From the NCBI RefSeq assembly GCF_030063135.1, contig NZ_JASISO010000017.1, forward strand, positions 1 to 64,000: DNA of 64,000 nucleotides, given 5' to 3'. This DNA comes from Streptomyces sp. G-G2 (GTDB lineage Bacteria; Actinomycetota; Actinomycetes; Streptomycetales; Streptomycetaceae). Numbering within the stretch: the stretch's first letter is position 1; each line of letters starts with the position of its first letter. The position numbers and the translations under genes were made by a program. Below, one piece after another: positions 22,421 to 43,889 of the stretch. Under the pieces are notes generated by a model. That model was not told where the DNA came from. It made no database searches and saw only the letters and a list, made by a program, of their open reading frames with translations.

Positions 22421-22513
22421 TCGCCGTAGCGGCTCGTCGCGCCGCGCTTCCCCGCTCACGGGCGGGTCGTCCGCCCCTTTCCCGCAGCCAACTCTCCGAG
22501 GGAGTACCAAGGC

Positions 22514-24102: not shown

Positions 24103-24104
24103 CG

Positions 24105-24151: not shown

Positions 24152-24159
24152 CGGACGGC

Positions 24160-24825: not shown

Positions 24826-25071
24826 TCTTAATTCCCCTTGTTCTTCATTGAGTTCCTCGATCCGTGAGCTTAACCACGGTTATTCGACGCGGCGTCGGCC
24901 GAGCTGATGTTGGCAGGAAGATGGCATTGAGCTGGCACGTCGTCAGATGCGAAGTCGATGGCACCTTCATGCCAATTCCCTTGGGCCCCGCTCCGGTGCG
25001 GTGCCAGAGTTTCGCGGAGAGCCGCCGTTCGGATGGCGAATGGCGATCCGTCGTGAGGTGGGGGATTCCTC

Positions 25072-26124: not shown

Positions 26125-26142
26125 CAAGGACAGGGGTTGGCC

Positions 26143-27690: not shown

Positions 27691-27699
27691 GGAGACGCC

Positions 27700-27909
27700 A
27701 TGTCGACGCCCGCGTTCGACGGGCCACTCGGCCCGACCCTGATCGAGATCATCCGCGGCACCCCCACGGCCGAGGAGATCGCCGCGCTCACGGCGCTGCT
27801 CACCACGCTGGCGGCGGCCTCCGCCCCGGAGCCCGGGCCCGTGCCCGCCGCCGCGGGCTGGGACCGGCCCGAGCGGTTCCCGCCCGCCTCCTGGCGGGCG
27901 CGGCCCTGA
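27700..27909 (+). CDS. Acyl-CoA carboxylase epsilon subunit
   Basis: A 69-residue small protein: LIEIIRGTPTAEEIAALTALL, an Ala/Pro-rich linker, and WDRPERFPPASWRARP. This is the pattern of the actinomycete-specific epsilon subunit (AccE/PccE), which binds the beta subunit and raises carboxylase activity. It starts 9 bp after the beta gene with its own GAGGAG site, so the pair is co-translated. The palindrome upstream of the first SARP gene begins two bases after its stop codon. Confidence 0.85.
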   Translation: MSTPAFDGPLGPTLIEIIRGTPTAEEIAALTALLTTLAAASAPEPGPVPAAAGWDRPERFPPASWRARP

Positions 27910-27911
27910 GG

Positions 27912-27927
27912 TGGCAGCTTGCTGCCA
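27912..27927. promoter_or_regulatory. Palindromic operator TGGCAGC-TT-GCTGCCA
   Basis: A perfect 7+2+7 inverted repeat directly after the carboxylase epsilon gene and about 100 bp before the first SARP gene. Its arms are identical to those of the palindrome at 22405-22420. A weaker copy, TGGCAACTTCCTGAAA, lies at 21325-21340, and a degenerate GGCAGCTTCCTGCA at 42607-42620. Confidence 0.7.
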
Positions 27928-28027
27928 GCCGCGTTGCCGCCTCTCCCACACCCTGCTAATCACTACAAAAGCGGCATGAACCGAGCCGTGCGACGTCGGC
28001 CGCGGCCGCATGACGGGAAGGCAGCTC

Positions 28028-31012
28028 GTGCGTCAGGTGGTGTTCCGGGTCCTGGGTCCTCTGGACATCAGCGCCGACGGGATACCGGTGACCCTCACGG
28101 GCGCCCGTCAGCGCACCATCATGTCGATGCTGCTCCTCGCCCCCAACCGGATCGTGTCGGTCGACACCCTCGCGGACGCCGTCTGGTGCGGGAACCCGCC
28201 CGCCACCGCGCGCAACCAGATCGCCATCTGCGTCTCCGCCCTGCGCAAGACCCTCAAGGCGGCCGTCGGCGTCGAGGACCTCCTGGTCACCAGCCACCCC
28301 GGCTACATGCTGTTCGCCGGGGAACACCGCATCGACGCGGTCGAGTTCGAGGAGCTGGCCGAGCTGGGGCGGGAGGCGGCCCGCGGCGGCCGGGCCGAGG
28401 AGTCCTGCGGCCACTTCGGTGACGCCCTCGCCATGTGGCGCGGCCCCGCGCTGGAGGGCGTCGCCGCGCAGCGCGTCGAGGACGAGGCCGCCCGGCTGAC
28501 GGAGCTGCGCCTCGACGTGTACGAGGAACTCATGGGGCTGCGCCTGGAACTGGGCCACCACCGCGAGGTGACCGGCGAGCTGACCGCCTTCGTGCGCGAG
28601 CACCCGCTCCGGGAGCAGGCCAAGGGGCACCTCATGCTGGCCCACTACCGTTCCGGCCGACGGGCCGAGGCCCTGGAGACGTACCGCGAGGGCCGACGGC
28701 TGCTCAACGACGAACTCGGCATCGATCCCGGACCCGCCCTCCAGAGGCTCCACGGGGAGATCCTCGCGGACTCGCCGAAGCTGGACCTGCCCACCGAGGC
28801 GGTCGTGGCCGTCCCCTCGCGGAGCGTTCCGGCGCAACTGCCGTCGAGCGTCGCCTCGTACACCGGACGCGGCCAGGAACTCGCCGCCCTCGACCGCCTC
28901 CTCGACCACCTCGACGGCGCTGCCCTGCCCGTCGGCTCCATCACCGGCATCGGCGGCGTCGGCAAGACGGCCCTCGCGGTGCACTGGGCCCACCAGGTCG
29001 CCGGCCGCTTCCCCGACGGCCGGCTCTTCGCCGACCTGCGCGGCTACGACGAGGAGGCGCCGCTGCGGCCGAGCGCCGTACTCGACCGGTTCCTGCGCGC
29101 GCTCGGCGTGCCGGGCCCGGAGGTCCCCGCCGACCAGAACGAGCGCGCCGCGCTCTTCCGCAGCGTCCTGGACGGCCGCCGGGTGCTGATCCTCCTCGAC
29201 AACGCCCGCTCCTTCCAGCAGATCCGCCCCCTGCTCCCCGGTACGGGCCGCTGCTGCGTCCTGGTCACCAGCCGGGACCCCATGGGCGGCGCGCTCGCCG
29301 GTGACTACGCCTTCGTACCGATGCACCTCGGCGCCCTGGAACAGGACGAGGCGATCGCGCTGCTCGCCCGGGTGGCGGGCGACGACCGGCTGTCCGCCGA
29401 CCCGGTCGGAGCGGCCCGGCTCAGCGCGCTCTGCGACCGGCTGCCGCTGGCCCTGCGGATCGCGGCGGCCCGGCTCGCGGCCAAGCCCCACTGGCCGGTG
29501 CGCACCCTGGTCTCCCGGCTGGAGGACCAGCACCGCAGGCTCGACGAGCTCAGCCCCGACGAGCGCGGGGTCCGCGCCGGTCTGCGGCTCAGCTACCGCG
29601 ACCTGCCGGCCGCCACCGCCCGGATGTTCCGGCTGCTCGGCGCGGCCAACGTGCCCGACTTCTCCGCCTGGGCCGGAGCCGCGCTCCTCGACATCGACCT
29701 GCTGGACGCCGAGGACCTCATCGAAGAGCTGGTCGACGCGCAGCTGCTGATGCCGCAGGCCGCGACCACCGGCCATGTGCGCTACCGCTTCCAGGCCCTG
29801 CCCCGGCTCTTCGCCCGGGAAGTGGCCCTGGCCGAGGAGAGGGCGGAGGAACTGCGCGCCGCGACCAGGCGCGTGGCCGGTGCCTGGCTGGCGCTCGCCG
29901 GGGAGGCCCACCGCCGGATCTACGGCGGCGACTACACCGTCATCCACAGCGGCGCGCCGCTCCACGCCCTCCCGGCCACGCTCGTGGACAGCCTGCTGGA
30001 GGACCCCATGGAATGGTTCGAGACCGAGCGCGTCGCGATCACGGGCCTGGTGGACCAGACCTCCCGCGACGGCGAGGCCGCGTACGCCTGGGACCTGACG
30101 ATGACCAGCGTCACCCTCTTCCAGAACCGCAACTATCTCGACGACTGGCGCTCCTGCGCCGAGCGGGCCCTGGAGGCCGCCCGCCGCACCGGTGACCGGC
30201 TGGGCGAGGCAGCGATGCTGCACTCGCTCGGCACGCTGGGGATCCTCTCGTGGGAGCACGACGCGGCCGTCGAGCACCTGAACCTGGCGCTGCGCCTGTT
30301 CGAGGAGGAGGGCCAGGACCAGGGGCGGGCCCTGGTCCTGCGCAACCTGGCGCTGTGCGGGCGCTACCGCGGGGATCTGCACCGGGCCCGGCGGATGGGC
30401 CACGAGTCGCTGGAGCTGTTCCGGGCCGGGGGCGACCAGTACGCGGAGGCCCATGTACTGGGCCTGCTCGCGCAGATCGAGCTGGAACTCGGGAACGCGC
30501 AGGCGAGCCTGGTGCTGTCCTCGGAGGCGGTGGTCAGGAGCCGAGGGCTGGGGACCGTGCGCGGCGAGGCGCAGAGCGTCGTCCGGCTAGCCGAAGCCCT
30601 GATCCACCAACGGGACGGGGAGCGCGCGGAGGAGGCGTGCCGACGGGCGCTGGGGCTGGTCCGCACCAGCGGGGACCGGCGGGGCGAGGCGCACACGCTG
30701 CGCGTGCTGGGCGAGGCCCTGTGGTGCCGGGAACGGATGGAGGAGGCCGAATCGGTCCTCGACGACGCGCTGGCGACGGCGGCCAAGGTCCCGGACCGCT
30801 ATCTGGAGGGGCGGGCGGGCATCGCGCTCGGCTGCGTCCGCGCGGTGCGCGGGGACCGGTCCGGCGCGGCGGGCTGCTTCAAGGCCGCGGCCGATCTGTT
30901 CGCCGAGGTCGGCGCCCCGTCCTGGCAGAGCCGGGCCGGGAGGTTGCTGCGACTGCTCGGGGACGGCGACCTGCTGGACCCGTCGGACCTGTTCACGCTC
31001 GTCCAGCCCTGA
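28028..31012 (+). CDS. SARP-family regulator with NB-ARC and TPR domains (AfsR-like)
   Basis: A roughly 994-residue AfsR/SARP regulator, probably the main activator of the NRPS cluster. Order of domains: OmpR-like winged helix (VFRVLGPLDISADGIPVTL... YMLFAGEHRIDAVEFEEL), bacterial transcriptional activation domain (LGIDPGPALQRLHGEIL), an NB-ARC ATPase with an intact P-loop GIGGVGKTALAV (Lys313), LILLDNARS and LPLALRIAAARLA, then a C-terminal TPR-like region. I prefer GTG 28028 because GGGAAGG lies six bases ahead; an ATG at 28010 has no such signal. The TGGCAGC palindrome at 27912-27927 sits upstream. A small minus-strand gene converges with it. Confidence 0.9.
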   Translation: MRQVVFRVLGPLDISADGIPVTLTGARQRTIMSMLLLAPNRIVSVDTLADAVWCGNPPATARNQIAICVSALRKTLKAAVGVEDLLVTSHPGYMLFAGEHRIDAVEFEELAELGREAARGGRAEESCGHFGDALAMWRGPALEGVAAQRVEDEAARLTELRLDVYEELMGLRLELGHHREVTGELTAFVREHPLREQAKGHLMLAHYRSGRRAEALETYREGRRLLNDELGIDPGPALQRLHGEILADSPKLDLPTEAVVAVPSRSVPAQLPSSVASYTGRGQELAALDRLLDHLDGAALPVGSITGIGGVGKTALAVHWAHQVAGRFPDGRLFADLRGYDEEAPLRPSAVLDRFLRALGVPGPEVPADQNERAALFRSVLDGRRVLILLDNARSFQQIRPLLPGTGRCCVLVTSRDPMGGALAGDYAFVPMHLGALEQDEAIALLARVAGDDRLSADPVGAARLSALCDRLPLALRIAAARLAAKPHWPVRTLVSRLEDQHRRLDELSPDERGVRAGLRLSYRDLPAATARMFRLLGAANVPDFSAWAGAALLDIDLLDAEDLIEELVDAQLLMPQAATTGHVRYRFQALPRLFAREVALAEERAEELRAATRRVAGAWLALAGEAHRRIYGGDYTVIHSGAPLHALPATLVDSLLEDPMEWFETERVAITGLVDQTSRDGEAAYAWDLTMTSVTLFQNRNYLDDWRSCAERALEAARRTGDRLGEAAMLHSLGTLGILSWEHDAAVEHLNLALRLFEEEGQDQGRALVLRNLALCGRYRGDLHRARRMGHESLELFRAGGDQYAEAHVLGLLAQIELELGNAQASLVLSSEAVVRSRGLGTVRGEAQSVVRLAEALIHQRDGERAEEACRRALGLVRTSGDRRGEAHTLRVLGEALWCRERMEEAESVLDDALATAAKVPDRYLEGRAGIALGCVRAVRGDRSGAAGCFKAAADLFAEVGAPSWQSRAGRLLRLLGDGDLLDPSDLFTLVQP

Positions 31013-31040
31013 GGGCGGGCGGGCGGGCCGTGGCGCGGGC

Positions 31041-31313
31041 TCAGCTCCAGGGGTCGTCCTTCATCACGACCCGGGTGCGCGAGCCCGGGTCGTCGCTCTT
31101 CGTCAGGGGGGCGCTCGACCACGGGTCGTCCGCCAGCGTCCGCGCACTGGCCACGATCGCGCCGTCCTGGACGACGACCGGTGCGACGGAGAGGGCGAAA
31201 CCGGCGGCCGAGACGAGGCCGAGGGCGAGCACCGCCTGCGCGGCGAGCCGGCCCAGGGGAGCGGTGACGAGGGCGGCGGCGCTCGACTTCGTGGAACGGA
31301 CGAGGTGCGTCAC
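31041..31313 (-). CDS. Small membrane-anchored protein with repeated DDPWS motif
   Basis: A 90-residue protein. One long hydrophobic segment (AQAVLALGLVSAAGFALSVA) follows a short basic N terminus, then a polar tail carries DDPWS twice, once at LADDPWSSAP and once as the last five residues (VMKDDPWS), with SDDPGS between. GTG 31313 is chosen since AGGAG lies six bases upstream. It sits on the opposite strand between two SARP genes. The topology suggests a surface or secreted peptide. No family recognised; it may be a signal or regulator of the SARPs, which is speculation. Confidence 0.6.
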   Translation of the reverse strand: MTHLVRSTKSSAAALVTAPLGRLAAQAVLALGLVSAAGFALSVAPVVVQDGAIVASARTLADDPWSSAPLTKSDDPGSRTRVVMKDDPWS

Positions 31314-31527
31314 GGCATGCTCCTGAAGGTTCGTGGACGGTCCGGGGCCGCTGTGGGCGCCGCCCCGGGGTATGCCGTGAACGGTAGGGAGCCGTCTTGT
31401 CGGAGCGCTTTCGGATCGATTTCGTGGCCCGCGAAATCGCCGCGATGCCCGGGGGCAATCGCCCGTCAGTAGCTTTCGCGGCACGAGGCCAGCCGACCGG
31501 GGCGGGCCCGCGCAAGGCGGAGGCGTC

Positions 31528-33414
31528 ATGGACTTCACGATCCTCGGACCCGTGTCGGCCCGGGCCGCGGGCCGCGCGGTAGCGCTGGACGGCAGCAAGC
31601 AGCGCACCGTGCTCGCCGCCCTGCTGCTGGCCCGCGGCAAGGTCATGACGGACGAGCGGCTCACCACGCTGCTGTGGGGCTGGGAGCCCCCGGCCAGCAG
31701 CACCAACCAGCTCTACACGTACGTCTCACGGCTGCGGACCCGCCTGGGCGCCCGGCACGGTCTGGAGCGCATCGGTTCCGGCTACCGGATGGACATCGGG
31801 GACGCCGGGTTCGACTGGGACGACTTCCGCCGCCTCGTTGACGCGGGCGGCGCCGACCTGACGGCGGGACGGTACGAGGACGCCGAACGCCGCCTCGCCG
31901 CCGCCCTCGCGCTGTGGCGCGGACCGGCCCTGACCGACGTCACCGCGCGGCTCGCCGAGGCGGAGGGCCCCCGGATGGAAGAGGTCCGGCTGTCCGCGCT
32001 GGAACAGCACACCGAGGCCGCCCTCGCGCTGGGCCGGCACGCGGACACCGTTCCCGGCCTGACCCGGCAGGTCGCCCTGCACCCCGTACGGGAGCGGCTG
32101 CGCGGCCACCTGATGACCGCGCTGTTCCGCTGCGGCCGCCAGGCCGACGCGCTCGCCGTGTACGAGGAGGGGCGGCGGGTCCTCGCCGAGGACCTCGGCA
32201 TCGATCCCGGGCCCGAACTGCGCGCCCTGCACCAGAGGGTCCTGACGGGCACGCTCCCCGCGCCGCAGGCCCCGGAGCGCCCGTGCGCGGACCCGGCCCG
32301 CTCGGGGGCGGCTCCCGCACGCGGACCCGGGGAGGCGGACTCCGGCGCGGCCGCTGCCGTGGCGCTGCCGCGCCCCGCCCGCCCGGCGCCCGGCCGCGAC
32401 GGCTGGCCGGGGCTGGTTCCCGCGCTGCTGCCCGCCGCCCCCGGCGACTTCACCGGCCGTGAGGAGGAGAGCGCCGAGATCCTCGCCGCCCTGCGCGCGC
32501 ACCAGGACGTCGTGATCACGGGGGCCCCCGGCACGGGCACGTCGGCGCTGGCGCTGCGGGCGGCGGAACTCAGCCGCGCCGCCTTCCCGGACGGACAGCT
32601 CTACGCCGATCTGCGCACCCCGGAGGGCGGCGCCCGCACCACGGGCGAGGTGCTCGGCTGGTTCCTGCGCGCCCTCGGCGCCGACCCCGCCCGGCTCCCC
32701 GAGGGCCTCGACGAGCGCGTCCAGCTCTACCGGACGCTGCTGGCCGGGCGCCGCGTGTTCGTCGTGCTCGACAACGCGGACGACGACGCCCAGGTACGTC
32801 CGCTGCTGCCGGGCGGTGACAGCCGCACGATCGTCACGGGTCCCCGCTCCCCGCTGGCCTCGCTCGAAGGCACCCGGCTGGTGCGGACCGGCCCCATGAC
32901 GCCCCGGGAGTCGCTCCAGCTGATGATGACGGTCGCGGGACCCGGACGGATCTCCGACGACCTCGAATCGGCCGCGCGCATCGCCGAGTTCTGCGACCGG
33001 CTGCCGCTGGCCCTGCGGATCGCGGGCGCCCGGCTCGCCGCCCGCCCCCAGTGGTCGGCCGCCCGGCTCGCCGCCCGCCTGGCACCCGAGGAGCGCAGGC
33101 TGGCCGAGCTGCGGCTGGGCGGCCTCGACGTACGGGCGACGCTGTCCCGGGCGGTGGACCGGCTGCCCTTCGAGGTGCGCGGCGCCTTCGGTGTCCTCGC
33201 GGCGGCGGGCTGGAGGGACCTGGGCGCGGCCGACGCGGCAGCGCTCCTCGGCACGGGGGTCGACGACGCCGAGGAGATGCTGGAGCAGCTGACCGACGCG
33301 CAGCTGGCGGACGCGTGGGGCGTCGACGGCGACGCCCGGCCGCGCTACCGCTTCACGCGGCTGGTCCGGCTGTTCGCCCAGGAGCGGAGCTCCGCCGTCC
33401 TCCTCGCCGCCTGA
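31528..33414 (+). CDS. SARP-family regulator with defective NB-ARC domain
   Basis: A 628-residue SARP. The N-terminal winged helix (MDFTILGPVSARAAGRAVAL, TNQLYTYVSRLRTRLG) and the activation domain (GIDPGPELRALHQRVL) are normal. After an Ala/Pro-rich linker the NB-ARC part shows VITGAPGTGTSALAL, where the Walker A lysine is Thr338, while FVVLDNADDDAQV and LPLALRIAGARLAA are kept. The protein ends after the helical NB-ARC extension, with no TPR region. ATP binding is therefore doubtful, and it may work as a simple constitutive SARP or modify the larger one upstream. The ATG start follows GGAGG. A strong terminator follows. Confidence 0.9.
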   Translation: MDFTILGPVSARAAGRAVALDGSKQRTVLAALLLARGKVMTDERLTTLLWGWEPPASSTNQLYTYVSRLRTRLGARHGLERIGSGYRMDIGDAGFDWDDFRRLVDAGGADLTAGRYEDAERRLAAALALWRGPALTDVTARLAEAEGPRMEEVRLSALEQHTEAALALGRHADTVPGLTRQVALHPVRERLRGHLMTALFRCGRQADALAVYEEGRRVLAEDLGIDPGPELRALHQRVLTGTLPAPQAPERPCADPARSGAAPARGPGEADSGAAAAVALPRPARPAPGRDGWPGLVPALLPAAPGDFTGREEESAEILAALRAHQDVVITGAPGTGTSALALRAAELSRAAFPDGQLYADLRTPEGGARTTGEVLGWFLRALGADPARLPEGLDERVQLYRTLLAGRRVFVVLDNADDDAQVRPLLPGGDSRTIVTGPRSPLASLEGTRLVRTGPMTPRESLQLMMTVAGPGRISDDLESAARIAEFCDRLPLALRIAGARLAARPQWSAARLAARLAPEERRLAELRLGGLDVRATLSRAVDRLPFEVRGAFGVLAAAGWRDLGAADAAALLGTGVDDAEEMLEQLTDAQLADAWGVDGDARPRYRFTRLVRLFAQERSSAVLLAA

Positions 33415-33516
33415 CGGGCGCCGCCCGCTCCCGTCGCGGCACCGCGCCCTCCCCGTCCGCGCCGCTCTCCCGTCCTGCCCGCTCTCCCCGTCCCTCCCGC
33501 TGTCCCCGTCCCTCCC

Positions 33517-33560
33517 GGCCTTCGCGGACCGGCCGCCTCGGCGCCCGGTCCGCGAAGGCC
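33517..33560. terminator. Strong bidirectional hairpin terminator
   Basis: A perfect 16-bp stem, GGCCTTCGCGGACCGG at 33517-33532 with its complement at 33545-33560, and a 12-nt loop. It lies between the convergent second SARP gene and the 79-residue ORF, 15 bp before the stop codon of the latter. Confidence 0.88.
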
Positions 33561-33575
33561 TTTCGCCGTCGCGGG

Positions 33576-33815
33576 TCAGCCGCAGCCGCCCGCGTGGCCC
33601 TCGTCGAAGCTGTAGGTCTCGGTGGGAGCCCGGAATTCGTGGCTCTGTGCCACCAGGGAGGTGAGTGCGTCCACGTATTCCGCCAGAAGCGCGGCCCAGG
33701 GAGTCGCCTCGCCACGCAGCTGCAATTCCTGTACCCGTGTTCCCCGCTGCTCGATATCCGTCAGGACGTCCAGTACGTTCTGAGCCTCGCTCAGGGAGTT
33801 CTCGTTCCGGTCCAT
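33576..33815 (-). CDS. Small protein of unknown function (79 residues)
   Basis: ATG 33815 has AGGAG five bases upstream, so translation is likely. The first 60 residues look helical and acidic (LSEAQNVLDVLTDIEQRG, WAALLAEYVDALTSLVAQ); the tail is ETYSFDEGHAGGCG, ending with Gly-Gly-Cys-Gly. It is transcribed divergently from the halogenase-like gene 160 bp away and shares a terminator with the SARP gene. There are no obvious peptide-modifying enzymes beside it. It could be a small regulator, a carrier-like protein, or a peptide precursor; none is supported over the others. Confidence 0.5.
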   Translation of the reverse strand: MDRNENSLSEAQNVLDVLTDIEQRGTRVQELQLRGEATPWAALLAEYVDALTSLVAQSHEFRAPTETYSFDEGHAGGCG

Positions 33816-33974
33816 CGCTGCTCCTGTGTGTGAAATGGACCCTGTTCAGGTCCCGCACTCACAGATTCGGACGGGGTGGTATACGGATTCTCGCGCCGGT
33901 CTGCACCGGCCCGTAGAGCTTTCCGCACGGTCGCGTACAGATCCCGTACAGACGACGGGGGCAGCTTTTCGGGC

Positions 33975-35534
33975 ATGGACCGCAGAATGAGGAAAGTCGT
34001 CGTCGTGGGAGGCTCCGTCGCCGGCTGGACGGTCGCGGCCAGGCTCGCGGGGACGTGGCGCGGGACGGTCGCCGTCACCGTGCTCCAGACGCCGTGCGCT
34101 GTCCCGGATCTGGCGGAGACAGGGCAGGTCACAGCCGTCCCACCAGAATTCCAGTCGGCGCTCTTCGATCCGCTGGGCGTGGCCGAGGACGACTGGACGC
34201 GGGCGTGCGGGGCGTCGTTCCGAACGGCTGTCAGGTATGTGAACTGGCGTACGGAGGGGCCGCTCACCACCGCCGCCAGGACGCTCGCGAACGGCGCCGC
34301 GGACCATTTCTACCGCCCGCGCGCGCACCTGCCCGAATGCGGGAACAATTCGCTCTCCCCTTACTGGCAGTACCTCAGGAGCGAAGGCCTGACCGCGGAA
34401 CCGTTCGACTACGCGTGCTTTCGCGAGCCACCGTTGATGGACGCCATGAAATCACCGCGATGGCTCGACGGCCGGGCGGCCTTTCCCTACGGATGGCACG
34501 TCGACACCCTGGTGTTCCGTGCGTTCCTGCGCGATCTCGCGGTACGGCGGCTCGATGTGCGCGCCGTCCACGATTCCGTGCGGTCCGCCGAGCGCGACGA
34601 GAACGGAATGCTGACCGCGCTGCGCACGGAAAAGGGGCGCAGGATCGAGGGCGACCTCTTCGTCGACTGCACCGGCCAGCAGGGCCTGCTGCTGGGGAAG
34701 GTCCTGGGGGAGCCGTTCGTCGGGGCGCAGGAGCGGCTGCTCTGCGACAGCGCCGCGACCGTCACCGTCGCGCACGACGACACCGCCCACGGAATCGAGC
34801 CCTTCGCCACCGCGACCGCCCTGCCCACGGGCTGGTCCTGGAAGCTCCCGCTGCCCGGCCGGTTCGGCGCGGGCCTCGTGTACCCCCGCGCGAGGACCGC
34901 CCCGGACGAGGCGGCGGGCCGGCTGTGCGAGCTGTACGGGCTGGACCCGGGGCGCGCCGAGGTGCGCCACGCCCGCTACCGCTTCGGACGCAGCCGCCGC
35001 GCCTGGGTGAAGAACTGCGTGGCGCTGGGTACGGCCGCCTGGCAGGTGGAACCCCTGGCGGGCGACGCGCTGGACGAAGTCCTGGGCGCGGTCGGCCTCT
35101 TGATCCGGGACGCCCCCTCCCTGGACGCGCGCGAGGCCCCGGCCGCCCGCTTCAACCGGGCCGCCCGGGACCGGTACGAGCGGGCCGCCGACGCCGTACA
35201 GCTGCACTACGCCGCGGCGCCGCGCGCCGACTCGGGATTCTGGCGGGCCCAGCGCGCACTGCCGCTGTCCGGCGCGCTCCGGGAATGCGTCGAGGCCCAC
35301 CGCGGGGGGCTCTCCCCCGAGCCGGGACAGGAGGCGCGGTACGGGCTGCTGTCGGCCCTCGTACCCGTTCCCGGTGGCTTGGCGCAGGGCACATCGATCG
35401 GATACCGCCCGGACGCACGGCGGTCGGCCGAGGAGCAGCTGGCCCGCGTCAAGCGCCGGCAGCGCATCCTGCTGGAGACGCTGCCGACGGCGCACGCGTA
35501 CCTGGAACGGCTCCACCGCCGCGCGGCTGCATGA
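33975..35534 (+). CDS. Tryptophan-halogenase-fold flavoprotein lacking catalytic Lys and Glu
   Basis: A 519-residue FAD-dependent protein clearly of the tryptophan halogenase family: VVVVGGSVAGWTVAARLA (FAD site), DLFVDCTGQQGLLLGKVL, LLCDSAATVTVAHDD, GWSWKLPLPGRFGAGLVYP (the WxWxIP motif as WSWKLP). The catalytic lysine region, normally FKxAIKF in PrnA and RebH, reads SFRTAVRYVNW, so both lysines are Arg (83 and 87). The PLEST motif with the catalytic Glu reads VEPLAGDALD, giving Ala at about 362. Halogenation by the known mechanism is unlikely. It may be a monooxygenase or use a new mode. ATG 33975 has a weak GGGGG site; ATG 33987 is an alternative. Confidence 0.85.
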   Translation: MDRRMRKVVVVGGSVAGWTVAARLAGTWRGTVAVTVLQTPCAVPDLAETGQVTAVPPEFQSALFDPLGVAEDDWTRACGASFRTAVRYVNWRTEGPLTTAARTLANGAADHFYRPRAHLPECGNNSLSPYWQYLRSEGLTAEPFDYACFREPPLMDAMKSPRWLDGRAAFPYGWHVDTLVFRAFLRDLAVRRLDVRAVHDSVRSAERDENGMLTALRTEKGRRIEGDLFVDCTGQQGLLLGKVLGEPFVGAQERLLCDSAATVTVAHDDTAHGIEPFATATALPTGWSWKLPLPGRFGAGLVYPRARTAPDEAAGRLCELYGLDPGRAEVRHARYRFGRSRRAWVKNCVALGTAAWQVEPLAGDALDEVLGAVGLLIRDAPSLDAREAPAARFNRAARDRYERAADAVQLHYAAAPRADSGFWRAQRALPLSGALRECVEAHRGGLSPEPGQEARYGLLSALVPVPGGLAQGTSIGYRPDARRSAEEQLARVKRRQRILLETLPTAHAYLERLHRRAAA

Positions 35535-35606
35535 AGCTGCCAGATTTCTCCGGCTCCCGGACGGTTCGGCCTAGGGTGGCCCGCGACCTACCGAGGGAGC
35601 ATCTTC

Positions 35607-37697
35607 ATGACCGCACTGTCCGCCGGCGCATTCGACGACATATCCCTCACGCTCGTCATTGTCGTGATGGCCGCGGGGGCCCTCGGGATCATCGTCGTCG
35701 GGGTCTCGGCGGCCTCCCGCAGACTGCTCGGCATCAGAGTCGGTCCCCTGCGCGCGCTCTGCGCGGGCCTGATGGGGCTGGGTGTCTTCCTCGCCTTCAA
35801 CGAAGTGGTGCGCGACGAGCAGGACCGGGGGGCGCTGTCGACGATCCAGATCCCGCTGGCCCTGTTCGCGGCGATGACCACCCTGGTGATCACCGAGGTG
35901 TTCCTGCCCCACGGCAGCTGGACATGGCCGCTCCAGGCCCTGCGGGGACTGGGCGACCGGATGCGACGGGCCCGCCGCTACTCCCAGATCAGCCGGATCT
36001 TCATGCGGCACGGTCTGAGCCGGATGCTGCGCGGCCGCTCGGGTTGGGAAAAGGCCCTGAAGCCCGGCGAGTTCGGCGAGCGGTCGGCCCGGTCGGCACG
36101 GCTGGCCCTGGAGGAGTGCGGTGGAGCGCTGATCAAGTTCGGCCAGGTGATGTCGACGCGGCGCGACCTGCTTCCGCCCCACTTCATCGACGAACTGAGC
36201 CGCTTGCAGAGCGACGTGCCCCCGGCTCCGTGGCCGGAGGTCGAGGCCGTCCTCCACAAGGAACTGGGCAAGCCGGTGTCCGAGGTCTTCGAGTGGATCG
36301 AGCACGTGCCCCTGGCGGCGGCCTCCATCGCTCAGGTGCACCGGGCCCGGCTGTGCGGCGGCCCGACGGTCGCGGTCAAGGTCCAGCGCCCCGGCATCCG
36401 CGAAGCGGTCGAACGCGACCTCGACATCGTGCTCACCATCAGCCGCAGCCTGCAGGCCCGGGTCCGCTCCGCCCAGGCCCTCGGCCTGCGCGAGCTGGGC
36501 GACGGGTTCTCCGAATCCGTACGCGAGGAACTGGACTTCCGTATCGAGGGCCGCAACGCGGTCGCCGTCGCCCAGGCCACCGGGGCATGGGACGCGGACG
36601 CGCCCGTACGCATCCCCCGGGTGTACTTCGAGTACACCTCGGCGCGGGTCCTGGTGCAGGAGTGGATGGAGGGCGTCACGCTCGACCGGGCCGGACCGGC
36701 CGCCGACGCGGCGGGCCTGGACCGGGGGGCGCTGGCCAGTACGGCCTTCTCCGCGATCCTCCACCAGATCCTGCGGGTCGGGGTCTTCCACGCCGATCCC
36801 CACCCGGGCAACATGCTGCTGCTCGACGACGGCCGGATCGGCCTCCTCGACTTCGGCTCGGTGGGGCGGACCGACCCTTCGGTCCGCCTCGCCATCCAGG
36901 AACTGCTGGTGGCCGTGGACCGGGGCGATCCGGCGGGGCTGCACGACGCCCTGCTCGCCCTGCTCGGCACCCGCGCCACCACCAACGAGGAACTGATGCC
37001 CGACGCGGCACTGCTGGAGCGGGAACTGGGCCGGTTCATGGCCCGGCACCTGGGAGCGGGAGCCCAGCCGGATTCCGAGATGTTCACGTCCCTGTTCCGG
37101 ATGCTGTCCCGGTTCGGGCTGGCCGTCCCCCCGGAGGTGGCGGCGGTCTTCCGGGCCCTGGCCACCATCGAGGGGACCCTCACGCACCTCGCCCCCGGCT
37201 TCAACCTGCTCGACGAGGCACGGGCGTTCGCCATCGGGCTGCTCACCGAGCGCTTCACCCTCGGCTCGGCGAAACCGCGGACCGGCGGGGCGGAGGGCGG
37301 CGGAACCGGGGGCTTCAGCCCGCCCGGGCTCTCCTCACTGGTACAGGGCGCGACCCAGGAACTGCTCGCCGTCCTGCCCATGCTGCGCCGACTGCCCCGC
37401 AGGGCCGAGCGCATCAGCGCCTCGCTGGAGGAGGGACGGCTCGGCGTACGGGTCCGGGTGCTCGCGGACGAGCGGGAGCGGCGCTTCGTATCCGGACTGA
37501 TCCACCAGGTCACGGTGACCCTGCTGGCCGCCTGCACGGGCTTGATGGGGGTCATGCTGGTGGTCTTCGGCACCGGCAAGGGGCCCCGGGTGACCGATCA
37601 GCTGGAGCTGTATCCGCTGATCGGCTACCACGTGCTCGCCGTCAGCGCGATCCTCATGCTCAGGGCCCTGTACACGGCGATGCGCCTGCCCGCCTGA
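35607..37697 (+). CDS. AarF/UbiB (ABC1) atypical kinase family protein
   Basis: A 696-residue membrane-associated ABC1 protein. The N terminus adds three to four hydrophobic segments (LVIVVMAAGALGIIVVGVSA, LMGLGVFLAFNEV, LALFAAMTTLVITEVFL). The kinase-like domain has IKFGQVMSTRRDLLP (KxGQ signature, Lys177), VAVKVQRPGI (Lys258), FHADPHPGNMLLL and LLDFGSVGR. Two more membrane helices close the protein. The family supports isoprenoid-quinone metabolism in other organisms. Here it lies 73 bp after the halogenase-like gene, probably in one transcript, and converges with a P450. A link to the polyprenyl synthase 9 kb upstream is possible but unproven. Confidence 0.9.
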   Translation: MTALSAGAFDDISLTLVIVVMAAGALGIIVVGVSAASRRLLGIRVGPLRALCAGLMGLGVFLAFNEVVRDEQDRGALSTIQIPLALFAAMTTLVITEVFLPHGSWTWPLQALRGLGDRMRRARRYSQISRIFMRHGLSRMLRGRSGWEKALKPGEFGERSARSARLALEECGGALIKFGQVMSTRRDLLPPHFIDELSRLQSDVPPAPWPEVEAVLHKELGKPVSEVFEWIEHVPLAAASIAQVHRARLCGGPTVAVKVQRPGIREAVERDLDIVLTISRSLQARVRSAQALGLRELGDGFSESVREELDFRIEGRNAVAVAQATGAWDADAPVRIPRVYFEYTSARVLVQEWMEGVTLDRAGPAADAAGLDRGALASTAFSAILHQILRVGVFHADPHPGNMLLLDDGRIGLLDFGSVGRTDPSVRLAIQELLVAVDRGDPAGLHDALLALLGTRATTNEELMPDAALLERELGRFMARHLGAGAQPDSEMFTSLFRMLSRFGLAVPPEVAAVFRALATIEGTLTHLAPGFNLLDEARAFAIGLLTERFTLGSAKPRTGGAEGGGTGGFSPPGLSSLVQGATQELLAVLPMLRRLPRRAERISASLEEGRLGVRVRVLADERERRFVSGLIHQVTVTLLAACTGLMGVMLVVFGTGKGPRVTDQLELYPLIGYHVLAVSAILMLRALYTAMRLPA

Positions 37698-37713
37698 GCG
37701 GGCCTACACCGGT

Positions 37714-38931
37714 TCACAGCAGGACGGGCAGCGCCTCCAGCGGGCGGACGACCATGTTCTGCTGGTACCGCAGCTCGGCCGGGTCCACGGCGAGGCGAAT
37801 CTCCGGGAACCGCTCGAAGAGCCGCCGGGCGGCGATCTCCGTGATCACCTTCGCGAGGTGGGCGCCCGAGCAGTAGTGGATGCCGAAACCGAAGCTGAGG
37901 TGCGCGGGCTTGGGGCGGTTCAGGTCCAGCTCGTCCGGGCGGTCGGGGAACTGGTGCGGGTCGCGGTTCGTCGACAGCGCGCTGATGACGACGACCTCCC
38001 CGGCCGGGATGCTCACGCCGCCGATCTCGACCGGTTCGGTGGTCACGCGCTGGAGAGTGTTGCCGATCGGGCTGACGAAGCGGATCAGTTCGTCCATCGA
38101 CTTGCCCCAGCGGCCCGGTTCGGCCAGCAGCTCGGTCCGCTCCGCCGGATGGGTCAGGAGCGCGGCGATGACACCGCCCACCAGGCTGGCGGTCGTGTCG
38201 TTGCCGCCGGTCATCAGCGCGAAGCCGGTGGAGAGGATCTCCGTACTGGTCAGCCGCCGTTCCGGGTCCGCGTGGATGAGCGCGGACAGCAGGTCCTCGC
38301 CCGGCTCGCGTTCCTTCTCCGCGATGAGCGCGGACATGTAGCGGGACAGCTCCCGGATGTTGAGGTCCAGCACCCCGGAGCCCTCGGTGGGGGAGTGGCT
38401 GCGCAGCGCGGTGGACCAGCGCAGGAAGTCCGGCCAGGCGTCGGCCGGTACGCCCATCAGCTCGGCGATGACGATGACGGGCAGCGGGTCGGCGTACCCG
38501 GAGATCAGATCGGGGCGGTCCAGCCCGGCCAGCCGGTCCAGCAGCTCGTCGGCGATCTGCTCCACCTTCGGCCGCAGGGCCTCGGCGCGGCGCGGGGTGA
38601 ACGCGAAACTGATGGCCCGGCGCAGCGGGGTGTGGCGCGGCGGCTCCAGATTGGCGAGGTGGTTGGCCTCCTCGGGGGGCGGCGTCATCGTGCGCCCGGT
38701 CCGCTCCGACATGAGGCGGTAGTGCACGTGGACGTCCCGGCTCAGCCGGGGATCGGCGAGCGCGGCCTTGGCGTCCTCGTACCGGGTCACCACCCAGGCG
38801 CGCCCGCCGTCGGGGAAGGACAGTTCGCGCACGGGGCTCTCGCGCCGTACGTACTCGAGGACCGGATACGGGTTCTGGGTGAAGTCGTTGGTGAGCATCC
38901 AGTACTTGGAGAGTGCCCGCGTGCCTGTCAT
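37714..38931 (-). CDS. Cytochrome P450 (CYP107-like)
   Basis: A 405-residue soluble bacterial P450. The I-helix oxygen-activation motif is ALMTGGNDTTASLVGGV, the ExxR helix is MDELIRF (E) followed by TLQRVTT, and the heme loop is FGFGIHYCSGAHLAKV with Cys354 as thiolate ligand. Length and motifs resemble macrolide and peptide tailoring CYP107 enzymes. I chose ATG 38931, six bases after GGAGG, over an ATG seven codons upstream. It is transcribed towards the AarF gene and away from the ABC exporter. It needs ferredoxin and reductase encoded elsewhere. The substrate is probably the peptide or a precursor. Confidence 0.92.
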   Translation of the reverse strand: MTGTRALSKYWMLTNDFTQNPYPVLEYVRRESPVRELSFPDGGRAWVVTRYEDAKAALADPRLSRDVHVHYRLMSERTGRTMTPPPEEANHLANLEPPRHTPLRRAISFAFTPRRAEALRPKVEQIADELLDRLAGLDRPDLISGYADPLPVIVIAELMGVPADAWPDFLRWSTALRSHSPTEGSGVLDLNIRELSRYMSALIAEKEREPGEDLLSALIHADPERRLTSTEILSTGFALMTGGNDTTASLVGGVIAALLTHPAERTELLAEPGRWGKSMDELIRFVSPIGNTLQRVTTEPVEIGGVSIPAGEVVVISALSTNRDPHQFPDRPDELDLNRPKPAHLSFGFGIHYCSGAHLAKVITEIAARRLFERFPEIRLAVDPAELRYQQNMVVRPLEALPVLL

Positions 38932-39193
38932 GTCCGTCCTCCGTGCCGTCACCGGGAGCTGCCCCCTTTTCCGTCGGCACGTTAGGCGCGCGCGGTGCGT
39001 GGACGCAGGTCTGGTCTCAAGAGTTCTATCTGCGCTCGGAATCGGGGCCTCCGGCCAGGAGGATCTATGCCGATTGGCAGATGTGGCGGGTCACGGCCCG
39101 CTCCTAGGCTCCTTTTCGACCGCCGGACGCCCCGCGGAGTGCTCCGGTCATGGACCGTCCGATGAATCAACCCGTATGGGGAGTGTGAGTCGT
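38932..39193. promoter_or_regulatory. Divergent promoter region, P450 and ABC exporter
   Basis: A 262-bp gap between divergent genes. TAGGCT at about 39105-39110 could be a -10 for the ABC genes, and a TTGGCAG word near 39074 resembles half of the TGGCAGC operator, but the second half is missing. Nothing here is strong enough to name a promoter with confidence. Confidence 0.35.
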
Positions 39194-39964
39194 GTGACCG
39201 CGACCATTTCGACTGCGACCAAGCGGCAGACCGCCGCGCGAGCTGTTGGCGTGACGAAACTGTACGGCGAGGGCGAGGCCCAGGTCGCGGCCCTGCGCGG
39301 CGTGAACGTCGAATTCACGGCCGGGGAATTCACCGCGATCATGGGCCCGTCCGGCTCCGGAAAGTCCACCCTCATGCACGCCCTGGCCGGCCTGGACAGT
39401 ATCACCTCCGGCGAGGTGTACATCGGCGACGCCGAGGTGAGCGGGATGTCCGACAAGTCGCTCACCGAGCTGCGCCGCAACCGGATCGGGTTCATCTTCC
39501 AGCAGTTCAACCTGCTGCCGACGCTGACGGCGCAGGAGAACATCCTGCTGCCGCTCGCGATCGCCGGACGCAAGCCGTCGAAGGACTGGTTCGACCGTGT
39601 CGTGGACACGGTCGGCCTGGGCGAGCGGCTCGGCCACCGGCCGACGGAGCTGTCCGGCGGACAACAGCAGCGCGTGGCCTGCGCCCGCGCCCTGGTGTCC
39701 CAGCCGGAGGTCATCTTCGCCGACGAGCCGACCGGAAACCTGGACTCGACCTCGGGCACCGAGGTGCTCAGGTTCCTCCAGCACTCGGTCCGTACCCTCG
39801 GCCAGACGATCGTCATGGTCACGCACGACCCGCACGCCGCTTCCTACGCGGACCGGGTCATCTTCCTGGCCGACGGCCGGATCGTGGACGAGCTCCGCGA
39901 GCCGACCGCGGACGCCGTGCTCGACACCATGCGCTCGCTCGACGGCAAGGCACGGGTGGCGTAA
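39194..39964 (+). CDS. ABC transporter ATP-binding protein (MacB/LolD type)
   Basis: A 256-residue ATPase of the MacB/LolD/FtsE type. Walker A IMGPSGSGKSTLMHAL (Lys57), IGFIFQQFNLLPTLTAQENILLPL (Q-loop, quoted in part as FIFQQFNLLPTLTAQENI), signature LSGGQQQRVACARAL, Walker B VIFADEPTGNLD and the switch His in MVTHDPHA are all intact. GTG 39194 is chosen since GGGGAG lies ten bases ahead; ATG 39176 is in frame but has no such site. The stop overlaps the permease start by one base (TAATG), so the two form one exporter. Role: probable export of the peptide or self-resistance. Confidence 0.93.
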   Translation: MTATISTATKRQTAARAVGVTKLYGEGEAQVAALRGVNVEFTAGEFTAIMGPSGSGKSTLMHALAGLDSITSGEVYIGDAEVSGMSDKSLTELRRNRIGFIFQQFNLLPTLTAQENILLPLAIAGRKPSKDWFDRVVDTVGLGERLGHRPTELSGGQQQRVACARALVSQPEVIFADEPTGNLDSTSGTEVLRFLQHSVRTLGQTIVMVTHDPHAASYADRVIFLADGRIVDELREPTADAVLDTMRSLDGKARVA

Positions 39965-42504
39965 TGCTGAATGCCACGCTCAAGAGTCTGCTCTCCCGCA
40001 AGCTCCGGCTGGTCCTCTCCGGCCTGGCGATCGTCCTCGCGGTGATGTTCGTATCGGGCTCCATGGTCATCAAGGACACGCTGAACCGTTCCATTGACGC
40101 CCAGTTCAATGGTGCTTACGACGACATGGACCTGCACGTGGCGCTCAAGCCCAAGGTGGCGGCCGACACGGGCGACACTGCGGCCGTGGCCCCGCTCGAC
40201 GCGGCGGCCGTCGCCCGCGCGGCCAAGGTCCCCGGCGTCGCCGGGGCGAAGGGCCTCGTCATGGCCGAGGGCGCACGCGTCCTGGGCCGGGACGGCAAGC
40301 TGGTGAAGAGCACCGGAGGCCCCCGCTACGGCGAGAGCTGGCGCGGCGAGAGCAAGCTGATAGAGCTGCGCTCCGGCCACGAGCCGCGCACGGACACCGA
40401 GGTCGCCATCAACGCCGGCCTGGCCGAGGAGGCGGGCTTCAAGGCCGGTGACCAGATCAGCGTGCTCACCTCGGAGCCGAAGCGGACCTTCACCGTGGCC
40501 GGCGTCTTCGGCTACTCCGGTGACCGCGGTTCCATCGGCGGCGAGCAGACGGTGGCCTTCAGCGCCCCGGTCGCCCAGCAGCTGATGCTCGGCCGGCCCG
40601 ACGCCTTCTCCGGCATCAAGGTGGACGTCGCCCCCGGCGCTTCGGTCCCCGCCGTACGAGCGGCGCTGACCGCCGGCCTCGGCGGCGAGTTCGAGGTCCT
40701 GACGGGCGAGGGGCTCGCCAAGAAGGCCTCCGACCAGTCCCGCGGCGTCCTCGACATGATGAACCAGCTGCTGCTCGGGTTCGCGGCGGTGGCGGTGCTC
40801 GTCGGCGTCTTCCTGATCGTCAACACCTTCTCGATCATCATCGCCCAGCGGATGCGGGAGCTCGCCCTGCTGCGCGCCCTCGGTGCGGGCCGCGGCCAGG
40901 TGATCGCCTCCGTGCTGATCGAGTCCTTCGTGGTCGGCCTGGTCTCCTCCGCCATCGGTCTCGCCGCGGGCATCGGCATCGGCGCCCTCGGCTCCGACCT
41001 GCTCGCCGGAGCGACGGACGGCCTTGAGGTCGCCTCCCTCGGCGTGCCCGCGAGCGCGGTGGCCACCTCCTTCGCCGTGGGCATCCTGGTGACGATGGCG
41101 GCCGCGCTCTTCCCCGCCGTACGGGCTTCCAAGGTGGCGCCCATCGCGGTGATCCGCGCCTCGGCCACGCCGGACGGCACGCACCGCAAGCAGACCTGGA
41201 CGGGCTCGGTCCTGCTCGGCCTCGGCGTCCTCCTGCTGGCACTGGGCCTCTTCGGGTCCAGCGGGGTGTCCGTGGTCCTCGGCGGAGTCCTGCTGGCCTT
41301 CGTCGGTGTCGCGCTCCTGACGCCGCTGTTCAGCAAGCCGTCGGTGCAGGTGATCGGCGCGGTGTTCTCCCGTTCGCTGCCCGGACAGCTGGGCCGGCGC
41401 AACTCCGCCCGCAATCCGCGCCGTACCGCCATCACCGCCTCGGCGATGATGATCGGCGTCGCCCTCGTCACCGCGATCAGCACGGTGGCGTCCTCCTCGG
41501 AGGACAGCGTCACCAAGGACATCCGGCGGGACCTGAAGGCCGACTACGTGGCCATGGGCGAGGCGGGTTCGGCGGGCTCGGCGACCATCGACCCGGCGGC
41601 GCTGACCCGGATCTCCGAGGTCCCCGGCGTGAAGGCGGTCGCGGCCGCGGCGCTGGACACGGCCACGGTCGGCAAGGAGGCCCAGCCGGTCACCGCCTGG
41701 CAGGACTGGAACACGGCCCGCGAGGTCCTCGGACTCCAGGACGCGCAGGGTTCCCTCGCGGCCCCCGCGGCGGGAACCGTGGTCATGAACGAGAGCACCG
41801 CGAAGACCCGCGGGGTGAAGGTCGGCGACAGCCTCACCCTCCAGCTCCAGCGGGGCGACGCCCGCACCTACGAGGTCGCCGGCCTCTTCAAGGACTCGTC
41901 CCTGACGAACAGCGTGGTCGTGCCCTGGGCCGACGCCGCGTCCGGATTCCGCGGCACCCAGCCCTCGCAGGCCTACTTCCAGCTGGACGGCGGGGCCGAG
42001 GGCGCCTCCGTGCGGCCGGAGATCGAGAAGCTGCTCGCGGACAGCCCCGAGGTCACGGTGAAGACCAAGGAGGAGGTCATCGAGATGTTCAGCGGCGGCA
42101 TGGCCATGATCCTCACCGTGGTCCAGGGACTGCTCGGCGTCGCGATGCTCATCGCGGTCCTCGGCATCATCAATACCCTCGCCCTGTCGATCCTCGAACG
42201 CACCAAGGAGATGGGCACGCTGCGGGCGATCGGCCTCAGCCGCGGTCAGACGATCCGCATGGTCATGACCGAGTCGGTGGTGATCTCCCTCTTCGGCGCG
42301 GTGCTCGGCATCGTGGTCGGCGGAGTCCTCGGACTCGCGGTGGCCCACGCGATGAAGGACCAGGGCGTCAGTGAACTGTCCCTGCCCTGGGGCCAGATGC
42401 TCGCCTACCTCATCGGTGCGGGAGTCGTCGGCGTCATCGCCTCGATCGCCCCGGCCCGCCGGGGTGCCCGGCTGAACGTGCTCACCGCCATCAGCCACGG
42501 CTGA
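39964..42504 (+). CDS. ABC transporter permease, FtsX/MacB-like
   Basis: An 846-residue permease with a duplicated FtsX layout: an N-terminal helix (LVLSGLAIVLAVMFVSGSMVI), an extracytoplasmic domain of about 200 residues, three helices (VAVLVGVFLIVNTFSIII, then ALLRALGAGRGQVIASVLI coupling region), a second unit beginning LLGLGVLLLALGLFGSSG, another extracellular domain, and three final helices (ILTVVQGLLGVAMLIAVLGI, SVVISLFGAVLGIVVGGV, LAYLIGAGVVGVIASIAPA). The mechanotransmission-type fold fits an exporter of peptides or lipids, or a resistance pump. It is translated from the overlapping TAATG with its ATPase. Confidence 0.93.
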   Translation: MLNATLKSLLSRKLRLVLSGLAIVLAVMFVSGSMVIKDTLNRSIDAQFNGAYDDMDLHVALKPKVAADTGDTAAVAPLDAAAVARAAKVPGVAGAKGLVMAEGARVLGRDGKLVKSTGGPRYGESWRGESKLIELRSGHEPRTDTEVAINAGLAEEAGFKAGDQISVLTSEPKRTFTVAGVFGYSGDRGSIGGEQTVAFSAPVAQQLMLGRPDAFSGIKVDVAPGASVPAVRAALTAGLGGEFEVLTGEGLAKKASDQSRGVLDMMNQLLLGFAAVAVLVGVFLIVNTFSIIIAQRMRELALLRALGAGRGQVIASVLIESFVVGLVSSAIGLAAGIGIGALGSDLLAGATDGLEVASLGVPASAVATSFAVGILVTMAAALFPAVRASKVAPIAVIRASATPDGTHRKQTWTGSVLLGLGVLLLALGLFGSSGVSVVLGGVLLAFVGVALLTPLFSKPSVQVIGAVFSRSLPGQLGRRNSARNPRRTAITASAMMIGVALVTAISTVASSSEDSVTKDIRRDLKADYVAMGEAGSAGSATIDPAALTRISEVPGVKAVAAAALDTATVGKEAQPVTAWQDWNTAREVLGLQDAQGSLAAPAAGTVVMNESTAKTRGVKVGDSLTLQLQRGDARTYEVAGLFKDSSLTNSVVVPWADAASGFRGTQPSQAYFQLDGGAEGASVRPEIEKLLADSPEVTVKTKEEVIEMFSGGMAMILTVVQGLLGVAMLIAVLGIINTLALSILERTKEMGTLRAIGLSRGQTIRMVMTESVVISLFGAVLGIVVGGVLGLAVAHAMKDQGVSELSLPWGQMLAYLIGAGVVGVIASIAPARRGARLNVLTAISHG

Positions 42505-42739
42505 CCGGAACGGTCCGCGCGGACGTCCGCCGACCGGCGCCGGAGGAGCCTTCGCGCCCCGCGCCCCCTGCCCCGCCTCCGCCGCCCCCCGCCCGACGTG
42601 CGGATCGGCAGCTTCCTGCACCTTCCATTGCCGCTCCAGCGCCAGTGGGCTGACATGTTCTAGGACTCACCGCGATCCCTCCGTTCCGGCGTGGGACGGC
42701 AGCGGGTCCGGTCGTGTCCGCAGAGAAACAGGGGGCAAG

Positions 42740-42994
42740 ATGCACGAGCGTGAGTTCCGCGCTTTTGTGTCCGTAGCGGAAATCGGACGCATGGATCAGG
42801 CCGCGAAGACACTGGGATATTCGCAGCCGGCCATCAGCTATCAGATCAAGTGCCTGGAGCAAATGCTGGGTACGAAGCTCTTCACGAGGGATTCGACGGG
42901 CGCGAGGCTGACCAGGGAGGGGCGGATGATACTTCCGTCCGCCCGGGCCGTGCTGGCCCTGATAGACAGCATGAAAGGCGTCTGCGCGGTGTGA
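42740..42994 (+). CDS. LysR-type DNA-binding domain alone (84 residues)
   Basis: The protein is just the winged HTH of a LysR regulator: FRAFVSVAEIGRMDQAAKTLGYSQPAISYQIKCLEQMLGTKLFTR (read in pieces) and LTREGRMILPSARAVLALID, then stops. The ligand-binding domain of about 200 residues is absent, and no frame continues it downstream. ATG 42740 has AGGGGG four bases ahead, and a convergent-gene hairpin terminator follows the stop, so it looks like a deliberate short gene, not a fresh truncation. It may act as an unliganded DNA binder or antagonist. A degenerate copy of the TGGCAGC operator lies upstream at about 42607. Confidence 0.75.
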   Translation: MHEREFRAFVSVAEIGRMDQAAKTLGYSQPAISYQIKCLEQMLGTKLFTRDSTGARLTREGRMILPSARAVLALIDSMKGVCAV

Positions 42995-43001
42995 CGGGGC
43001 G

Positions 43002-43033
43002 GGTTCCGGGACCGGCGGCGCCGGCCCGGAACC
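43002..43033. terminator. Hairpin terminator between convergent genes
   Basis: A 14-bp stem with one bulged A: GGTTCCGGG (43002-43010) and CCGGC (43012-43016) pair with GCCGG (43020-43024) and CCCGGAACC (43025-43033), closed by a GGC loop. It lies eight bases after the LysR-stub stop and before the stop of the response regulator on the other strand. Confidence 0.82.
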
Positions 43034-43080
43034 GGGTCACCGGGGGCCCGGCCGCCGGCTCGGACCGACAGGCCGCCGCC

Positions 43081-43731: not shown

Positions 43732-43822
43732 GATCAGTACCGTATCCGGTGATCACTTCGGGCAGCCACCGCCGTATTGAAAGATTCTCTGCGGCCTTCG
43801 GACGGGAACCGGGCCCTGCCAG

Positions 43823-43836
43823 CATCTGGGCAGATG
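43823..43836. promoter_or_regulatory. Dyad CATCTG-GG-CAGATG between response regulator and Rhs operon
   Basis: A perfect 6+2+6 inverted repeat in the 158-bp divergent gap, about 50 bp before the Rhs-type start. Size and symmetry suit a dimeric LuxR-type response regulator such as the adjacent one. Binding is inferred from position. Confidence 0.45.
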
Positions 43837-43889
43837 GACGTCGAGCGCCGAACGCGGTGCGTTTCCCCGTTTTGGAGTGGTGACTGGGC

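Follow-up and report, generated by a model that had tools for sequence, protein, structure and literature searches.

Flavin-dependent tryptophan (Trp) halogenases of family PF04820, such as BorH, Thal and RebH, have been described in detail. Their conserved lysine is reported to be crucial, its replacement leaving the enzyme inactive for halogenation (PMC10696468), and to act together with a glutamate (PMC8269204). The cofactor site of Thal has been described as well: the FAD phosphates are faced by the NH of Gly14 (PMC6863734), and Glu49 flips upon FAD binding (PMC6863734, PMC7336383). A further motif, WxWxIP, has been proposed to prevent hydroxylation (PMC10696468).

Here, we analyzed a window (the whole stretch of DNA under study, 64,000 nucleotides) that carries a relative of these enzymes, which we call the pseudo-halogenase (Table 1). 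It has the same full-length fold as BorH, Thal and RebH, the WxWxxP motif and many of their core residues. Unlike them, it lacks the catalytic Lys and Glu, the halide-site Ser and Thr, the FAD-loop Glu, the second glycine of the FAD motif and the Trp loop. We think it probable that this protein is a halogenase-derived pseudoenzyme, which most likely does not halogenate and would serve a module of SARP and DUF6269 genes as a partner for binding, scaffolding or regulation. In the open-access literature we found no tryptophan halogenase presented as a pseudoenzyme and, among the matches listed there, no description of this clade.

Table 1 Coordinates of the features in and around the pseudo-halogenase locus.
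Feature	Coordinates	Strand	Remark
Large pathway region	14204..64000		continues on the contig to ~113 kb
Protein whose C-terminus ends in a conserved NWQRGC and one further residue	24160..24825	-	no Pfam match
Polyprenyl synthetase family protein	25072..26124	+	left part of module
Acyl-CoA carboxylase beta subunit (PccB-like)	26143..27690	+
Acyl-CoA carboxylase epsilon subunit	27700..27909	+
SARP1, BTAD/NB-ARC/TPR regulator, 994 aa	28028..31012	+	'AfsR-like' is the name we assume for it
Small protein, hydrophobic N-part, DDPW repeats, ends DDPWS	31041..31313	-	no Pfam match
SARP2, BTAD regulator, 628 aa	31528..33414	+
DUF6269 (PF19784) small protein ending GHAGGCG	33576..33815	-	head-to-head with the pseudo-halogenase
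SARP-type promoter repeats	33912..33951	+	CGTAGAG 33912-33918, CGTACAG 33934-33940, CGTACAG 33945-33951
Pseudo-halogenase, Trp-halogenase fold, 519 aa	33975..35534	+	homology, model, clade alignment
ABC1-type kinase	35607..37697	+	the following gene in L033, L064 and L067, though not in all loci
1339-aa protein, YD/RHS-like repeats by eye	43890..47909	+
NRPS genes, 50366-56665 and 56666 onward	50366..64000	+	adenylation-domain motifs, by eye

The halogenase fold is predicted to be kept

We placed the start of the pseudo-halogenase gene at the ATG that fits the homologues; the gene caller had put it at 34239. Read in this way, the frame runs through all its codons with no internal stop, in agreement with the first-pass annotation, which had called the gene intact. 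Homology to Trp halogenases is far above chance: the protein matches PF04820 with 294.7 bits, its best match among the solved halogenases is BorH (1.5e-127), followed by RebH (2.2e-125), Thal and PrnA, and these enzymes align over most of its length. An AlphaFold model computed from a 31-row alignment reached a mean pLDDT of 88.3 and a pTM of 0.90, and compared with the Thal and RebH chains it gave TM scores of about 0.91-0.94. Residues 42-47, in the FAD loop, had pLDDT values below 50. The model thus predicts that the Trp-halogenase fold is kept.

We also considered whether the protein might be the inactive half of a pair whose other half is a working halogenase encoded in the same genome. 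The sole other PF04820 match there covers 61/458 positions at 25 bits, just above the cut-off of 21; therefore, no active paralogue is evident here, and this candidate was rejected. Two of the carrier genomes, G006 and G326, do hold a second halogenase homologue.

A clade of eroded homologues

A genus search returned matches at E <= 1e-20 in 77/392 Streptomyces genomes (of the weaker places, nine were read), and a scan of the named genomes gave 49 loci, which we sorted into 9 pseudo, 7 intermediate and 33 ordinary loci. Together, these searches yielded 12 members (counting the query) that share the losses; the full-length ones are 47-76% identical to it. L068 was left out of the counts as a copy of L004. 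The residue counts also leave out L005 and L031 (copies of L066 and L108), L007, L009 and L011-L028 (20 loci that keep the catalytic Lys and Glu) and a split copy in G167, which was used for synteny. The three groups were drawn by eye from a residue table that included the active-site letters, so the presence of the Lys in all ordinary rows holds partly by definition; trees built on all kept columns recover the same groups.

In the tree, which was rooted on six more distant homologues and includes 18 ordinary rows out of 36 (near-copies are frequent among the ordinary rows), the 12 pseudo and 8 intermediate members form one branch (100/100) nested in the ordinary halogenases, and the 12 pseudo members form an inner branch (100/100). 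Long branches and unusual composition are flagged for several clade rows. Two plasmid loci, L124 and L125, were found later and played no part in defining the pattern, yet they agree with it: they carry Asp and Ser at position 83, Ala at position 362 and Thr at position 14, and the lid is absent from both. Residues were read from these two, leaving out plasmid hits H2, H4 and H5; with them the clade counts 14 members. The changes are therefore common to a clade, not peculiar to the ORF in our window.

The 8 intermediates have lost the catalytic Lys (0/8) and the halide-site Ser (0/8), and they retain the FAD-loop Glu in 3/8, the catalytic Glu in 6/8 and the second FAD glycine in 7/8. Three loci, L080, L010 (flank L041) and L095, have Gln at the catalytic Lys site and keep the Glu and the lid. 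They adjoin an AfsR-like SARP (55-57%) and lie near genes that resemble, by eye, those of 2,3-diaminopropionate synthesis; possibly they represent an earlier stage of the same erosion. The outgroup homologue L115 (G343) keeps the lysine, in YKLAVRF, and has neither a PLE motif nor GVGEAT, and is perhaps an independent erosion.

Active-site and cofactor residues

Residue pairing was counted along the RebH alignment after subtracting the RebH tag, which we take to be 20 residues long. On this count, R83 pairs with the catalytic Lys79 of RebH, and A362 pairs with the catalytic Glu357, where the first-pass annotation had placed an Ala. The same annotation had listed Arg83 and Arg87 as two arginines in place of family lysines. 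R87, however, pairs with Lys83, which is non-catalytic, so one catalytic lysine has been lost and not two; relatives with Lys79 and PLEST intact often carry Arg at this place (FKMAVRF together with PLESTG), and R87 consequently means little. The PLESTG segment reads PLAGDA in the pseudo-halogenase, with Gly and Asp in place of the Ser and Thr that follow the Glu. Near residue 451, the substrate-binding loop that forms the Trp lid (the Tyr454/Tyr455 region of Thal) is deleted, a change additional to those first described.

These losses recur in the clade. The catalytic Lys is found in 1/12 members (L066) and the catalytic Glu in 0/12, and both the halide-site Ser and Thr are missing (0/12 each). 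The lid is a gap in 12/12 pseudo rows; its residues are present in 36/36 ordinary and 8/8 intermediate rows, with single-column gaps in some. Loss of the lid alone proves little, because BrvH and Xcc4156 also have short loops. Among the 14 members, position 362 is Ala in 12, Gly in one and Thr in one, and position 83 is variable (R6, T2, S2, D2, K1, N1). The phylogeny suggested earlier as a search for an RxxxR clade did reveal a clade, but one in which position 83 is not conserved, and we rejected a catalytic RxxxR motif; a different halogenation mode built on it is not supported, position 83 being Arg in 6/14.

Could the protein still halogenate, the Lys being replaced in function by Arg or some other residue? 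Its homology to BorH, Thal and RebH would fit, as would the label 'tryptophan 7-halogenase' given to five plasmid-borne relatives. We consider this highly improbable. The Lys site is unconserved and the sequence alignment of the 14 members contains no invariant Lys anywhere, and a conserved Lys elsewhere in the tunnel, looked for in the sequences, was not found; the Glu is absent from 14/14 and the halide-site Ser and Thr from 12/12; and in characterised enzymes replacement of the Lys is reported to abolish halogenation (PMC10696468).

The FAD motif, previously described as kept, turned out to be altered. GxGxxG reads GGSVAG, its second Gly being replaced by Ser14, and this position is Ser or Thr in 14/14 members. 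The FAD-loop Glu (Glu49 in Thal) occurs in 0/12 pseudo members at the aligned column, where gaps lower the certainty of the alignment. WxWxIP is retained, as had been noted, in the form WSWKLP (Leu for Ile); both Trp are present in 14/14 members and the Pro in 13/14. G12, G13, W287, W289 and further core residues are invariant in the clade. Given these residues, the pseudo-halogenase may still bind FAD, and we infer from the changed motif and loop that binding would be weak or absent. More broadly, 75 of the 236 positions held by at least 35/36 ordinary rows are kept in at least 11/12 pseudo members, and 81 positions are invariant in the 14 members, some of them clade-specific.

One alternative is that a halogenase has given rise to a functional flavin monooxygenase, in which the hydroperoxide of bound FAD attacks a pathway intermediate directly and the Lys and Glu are unneeded. 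In favour of this, the protein retains its fold and a large part of the FAD-domain core, the absence of the lid would make room for a bulkier substrate, for instance a peptide, and QhpG, of halogenase-like structure, is described as dihydroxylating Trp in a peptide (PMC7876137); the query matches the QhpG model weakly, far under its cut-off. Against this stand the Ser or Thr at the second GxGxxG glycine, the missing FAD-loop Glu and the preservation throughout the 14 members of both Trp of WxWxIP, the proposed hydroxylation blocker (PMC10696468). We judge the monooxygenase option raised by the first-pass annotation rather unlikely. With both catalytic residues, both halide-site residues (Ser and Thr), the FAD-loop Glu, the FAD glycine and the lid all gone, the suggested loss of halogenase function is well supported by sequence, and of the functions then offered, 'structural partner' fits best.

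The gene is intact and under purifying selection

Reading frames across the clade are intact, and purifying selection acts on them. Internal stops are absent from 12/12 pseudo members, GC at the third codon position is 0.83-0.94, and the dN/dS values are below 1. Chance similarity and a decaying pseudogene (expected to show internal stops or a dN/dS close to 1) were both rejected on the PF04820 match, the intact frames and these ratios.

A different possibility is that the gene is a weakly constrained relic, which persists next to useful regulators and is on its way to being lost. By the NG86 method, dN/dS is 0.28-0.66 in 5 pseudo pairs versus 0.13-0.38 in 7 ordinary pairs; the pseudo-halogenase is 76% identical to its copy in L064, compared with 84-94% for PccB, SARP1, SARP2, the ABC1 kinase and a P450; and position 83 varies widely. 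All three observations would suit a relic. The YN00 method gave 0.06-0.12 in the 3 of 5 pseudo pairs for which it converged. Two other neighbours, DUF6269 and the DDPW protein, stand at 73% identity to L064. NG86 ratios against L064 are 0.34 for the pseudo-halogenase, 0.11-0.19 for PccB, SARP1, the kinase and the P450, 0.38 for SARP2 and 0.33 for DUF6269. Therefore, the pseudo-halogenase is constrained, less than some of its neighbours and about equally to others. A drifting gene would also sit poorly with 12/12 stop-free copies among full-length members that share just 47-76% identity with the query, with the 81 invariant positions, and with the recurrence of the promoter repeats described below. 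We hold a relic to be unlikely.

The SARP and DUF6269 module

The pseudo-halogenase lies directly downstream of two SARP genes and ~15 kb upstream of NRPS genes, which start at 50 kb and continue past the window end to ~87 kb on the contig. A recurring order was observed: carboxylase beta, epsilon, SARP1, an opposite-strand small protein, SARP2, opposite-strand DUF6269 and the pseudo-halogenase. Across the 49 loci, an ORF ending in GHAGGCG is present in 9/9 pseudo, 3/7 intermediate and 0/33 ordinary loci, and a relative of SARP1 with an identity of 55% or more in 6/9, 5/7 and 0/33, respectively; the stretches of the three pseudo loci without it end before its place. Three ordinary loci have a 46-48% SARP1 relative ~7-8 kb off, and many have a weak partial match of 23-30%.

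To the right of the pseudo-halogenase, gene content varies between loci; hence the upstream module is a more constant neighbour than the NRPS. Among the pseudo members, L008 (20-kb stretch L036) stands apart, with SARP1 at 70% and neither SARP2 nor DUF6269; for this reason, and because the right-hand genes vary, there is no universal partner. PF19784 occurs in 14/392 Streptomyces genomes (12 above the cut-off), including 6 of the 7 pseudo-halogenase genomes. Since DUF6269 also stands without an adjoining pseudo-halogenase, in L056, L057 and L058, the pairing of the two is loose.

The C-terminal heptapeptide GHAGGCG is a tail common to unrelated proteins, among them DUF6269, other small ORFs and, by eye, DsbA/isomerase-like proteins. 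Examples include the DUF6269 gene of the window, L097, L098, L099 and L126-L145. The corresponding DNA pattern followed by a stop occurs in 59/392 Streptomyces genomes, versus 4 for the reversed control, and 20 such loci comprised 13 DsbA-like proteins, 4 DUF6269, 1 other ORF and 2 probably spurious frames. The gene of the DDPW protein is convergent with SARP1; its product ends in DDPW plus one residue, and copies are found in L064, L107, L072, L067, L068 and L035. We found no open-access literature on DUF6269 or GHAGGCG, and the matches listed for DDPW were unrelated. It is conceivable, and in our view quite doubtful, that the pseudo-halogenase forms part of a peptide switch, as the dedicated binding or tailoring partner of the DUF6269/GHAGGCG protein or of the Trp-bearing DDPW peptide, for SARP-controlled antibiotic synthesis.

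The surrounding pathway region holds an A-PCP-TE protein, an epimerase, two LuxR-type helix-turn-helix regulators, NRPS genes and ketosynthase-type genes. We liken it to cinnamoyl-lipopeptide clusters, which as to the product class is a guess. At ~95-104 kb of the contig, there are genes resembling, by eye, the ketosynthase-type set that stands beside DUF6269 in L056 and L057. The 1339-aa repeat protein has counterparts in the corresponding position of L033, L064 and L067, and the protein ending in NWQRGC plus one residue has relatives in L056, L057 and L064.

Repeats at the pseudo-halogenase promoter

SARP sites are characterised by direct repeats 11 bp apart. Upstream of the pseudo-halogenase, we observed a pair of CGTACAG boxes with this spacing and a CGTAGAG variant 22 bp further up. 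These repeats are conserved at the pseudo-halogenase promoter: a two-box score of at least 11/14 was reached in 9/11 pseudo, 0/5 intermediate and 0/10 ordinary upstream regions, the last of which begin at the tblastn match, with the start codon unconfirmed. As the consensus was taken from the window, the window is not independent and L064 is its near copy; leaving both aside, the score was reached in 7/9 pseudo regions. We infer from this pattern that the promoter is probably under SARP control.

Within the window, the pseudo-halogenase promoter is the only perfect match to the pattern, and five other places carry 2 mismatches. The pattern is not enriched genome-wide: when up to 1 mismatch is allowed, the genome contains 17 matches and the reversed control gives 16; one of the 17 is another perfect match. 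Consequently, with such counts and nothing below 2 mismatches elsewhere in the window, a shared regulon is unsupported.

Discussion

We propose that in Streptomycetaceae a lineage of flavin-dependent Trp halogenases came to adjoin an AfsR-type SARP regulator. The catalytic Lys is missing from all but one of the 20 members of the lineage, and the halide-site Ser from all 20. The inner 12 additionally have no catalytic Glu, no second glycine in the FAD motif and no Trp lid, with the predicted fold kept. The gene lies back-to-back with a DUF6269 peptide gene and carries SARP-type repeats in its promoter. It would be under SARP control, and its product would most likely act as a binding, scaffold or regulatory partner of the SARP/DUF6269 module in the pathway. 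The active site has been lost and the gene stays intact beside the same regulators; therefore, it has probably acquired a new job. Because several of the defining features are missing, we class the protein as a derivative of the Trp-halogenase family with an eroded catalytic site rather than as a member of the functional class.

This reading has practical consequences. Labels such as 'tryptophan 7-halogenase' on these relatives would mislead genome mining for chlorinated products; L124 and L125, read among the plasmid relatives so labelled, lack the active site. The lineage also preserves dismantling stages of a well-studied enzyme while the gene stays under selection: Lys and halide-site Ser are gone in all 8 intermediates, and the lid is absent only in the inner 12. 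What a halogenase fold does without halogenation thus becomes testable in several Streptomyces pathways.

The chain-length factor of type II PKS is a pseudoenzyme subunit of comparable kind, whose catalytic residues are lost and whose fold stays in the pathway. It has an active paralogue as its partner. Unlike it, the pseudo-halogenase has no evident active paralogue in its genome. BrvH and Xcc4156, as described in PMC7336383, resemble the pseudo-halogenase in their open substrate site without a lid; they keep a solvent-accessible catalytic lysine, in contrast to the clade, where it is absent from 13/14 members. QhpG differs in its FAD site, which is reported to be well conserved with halogenases (PMC7876137), whereas that of the pseudo-halogenase is not, and the QhpG-type model scores 36.8 bits against the query, with a cut-off of 240. 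What the pseudo-halogenase would have in common with QhpG, as described in PMC7876137, is a halogenase-like architecture that works without halogenation.
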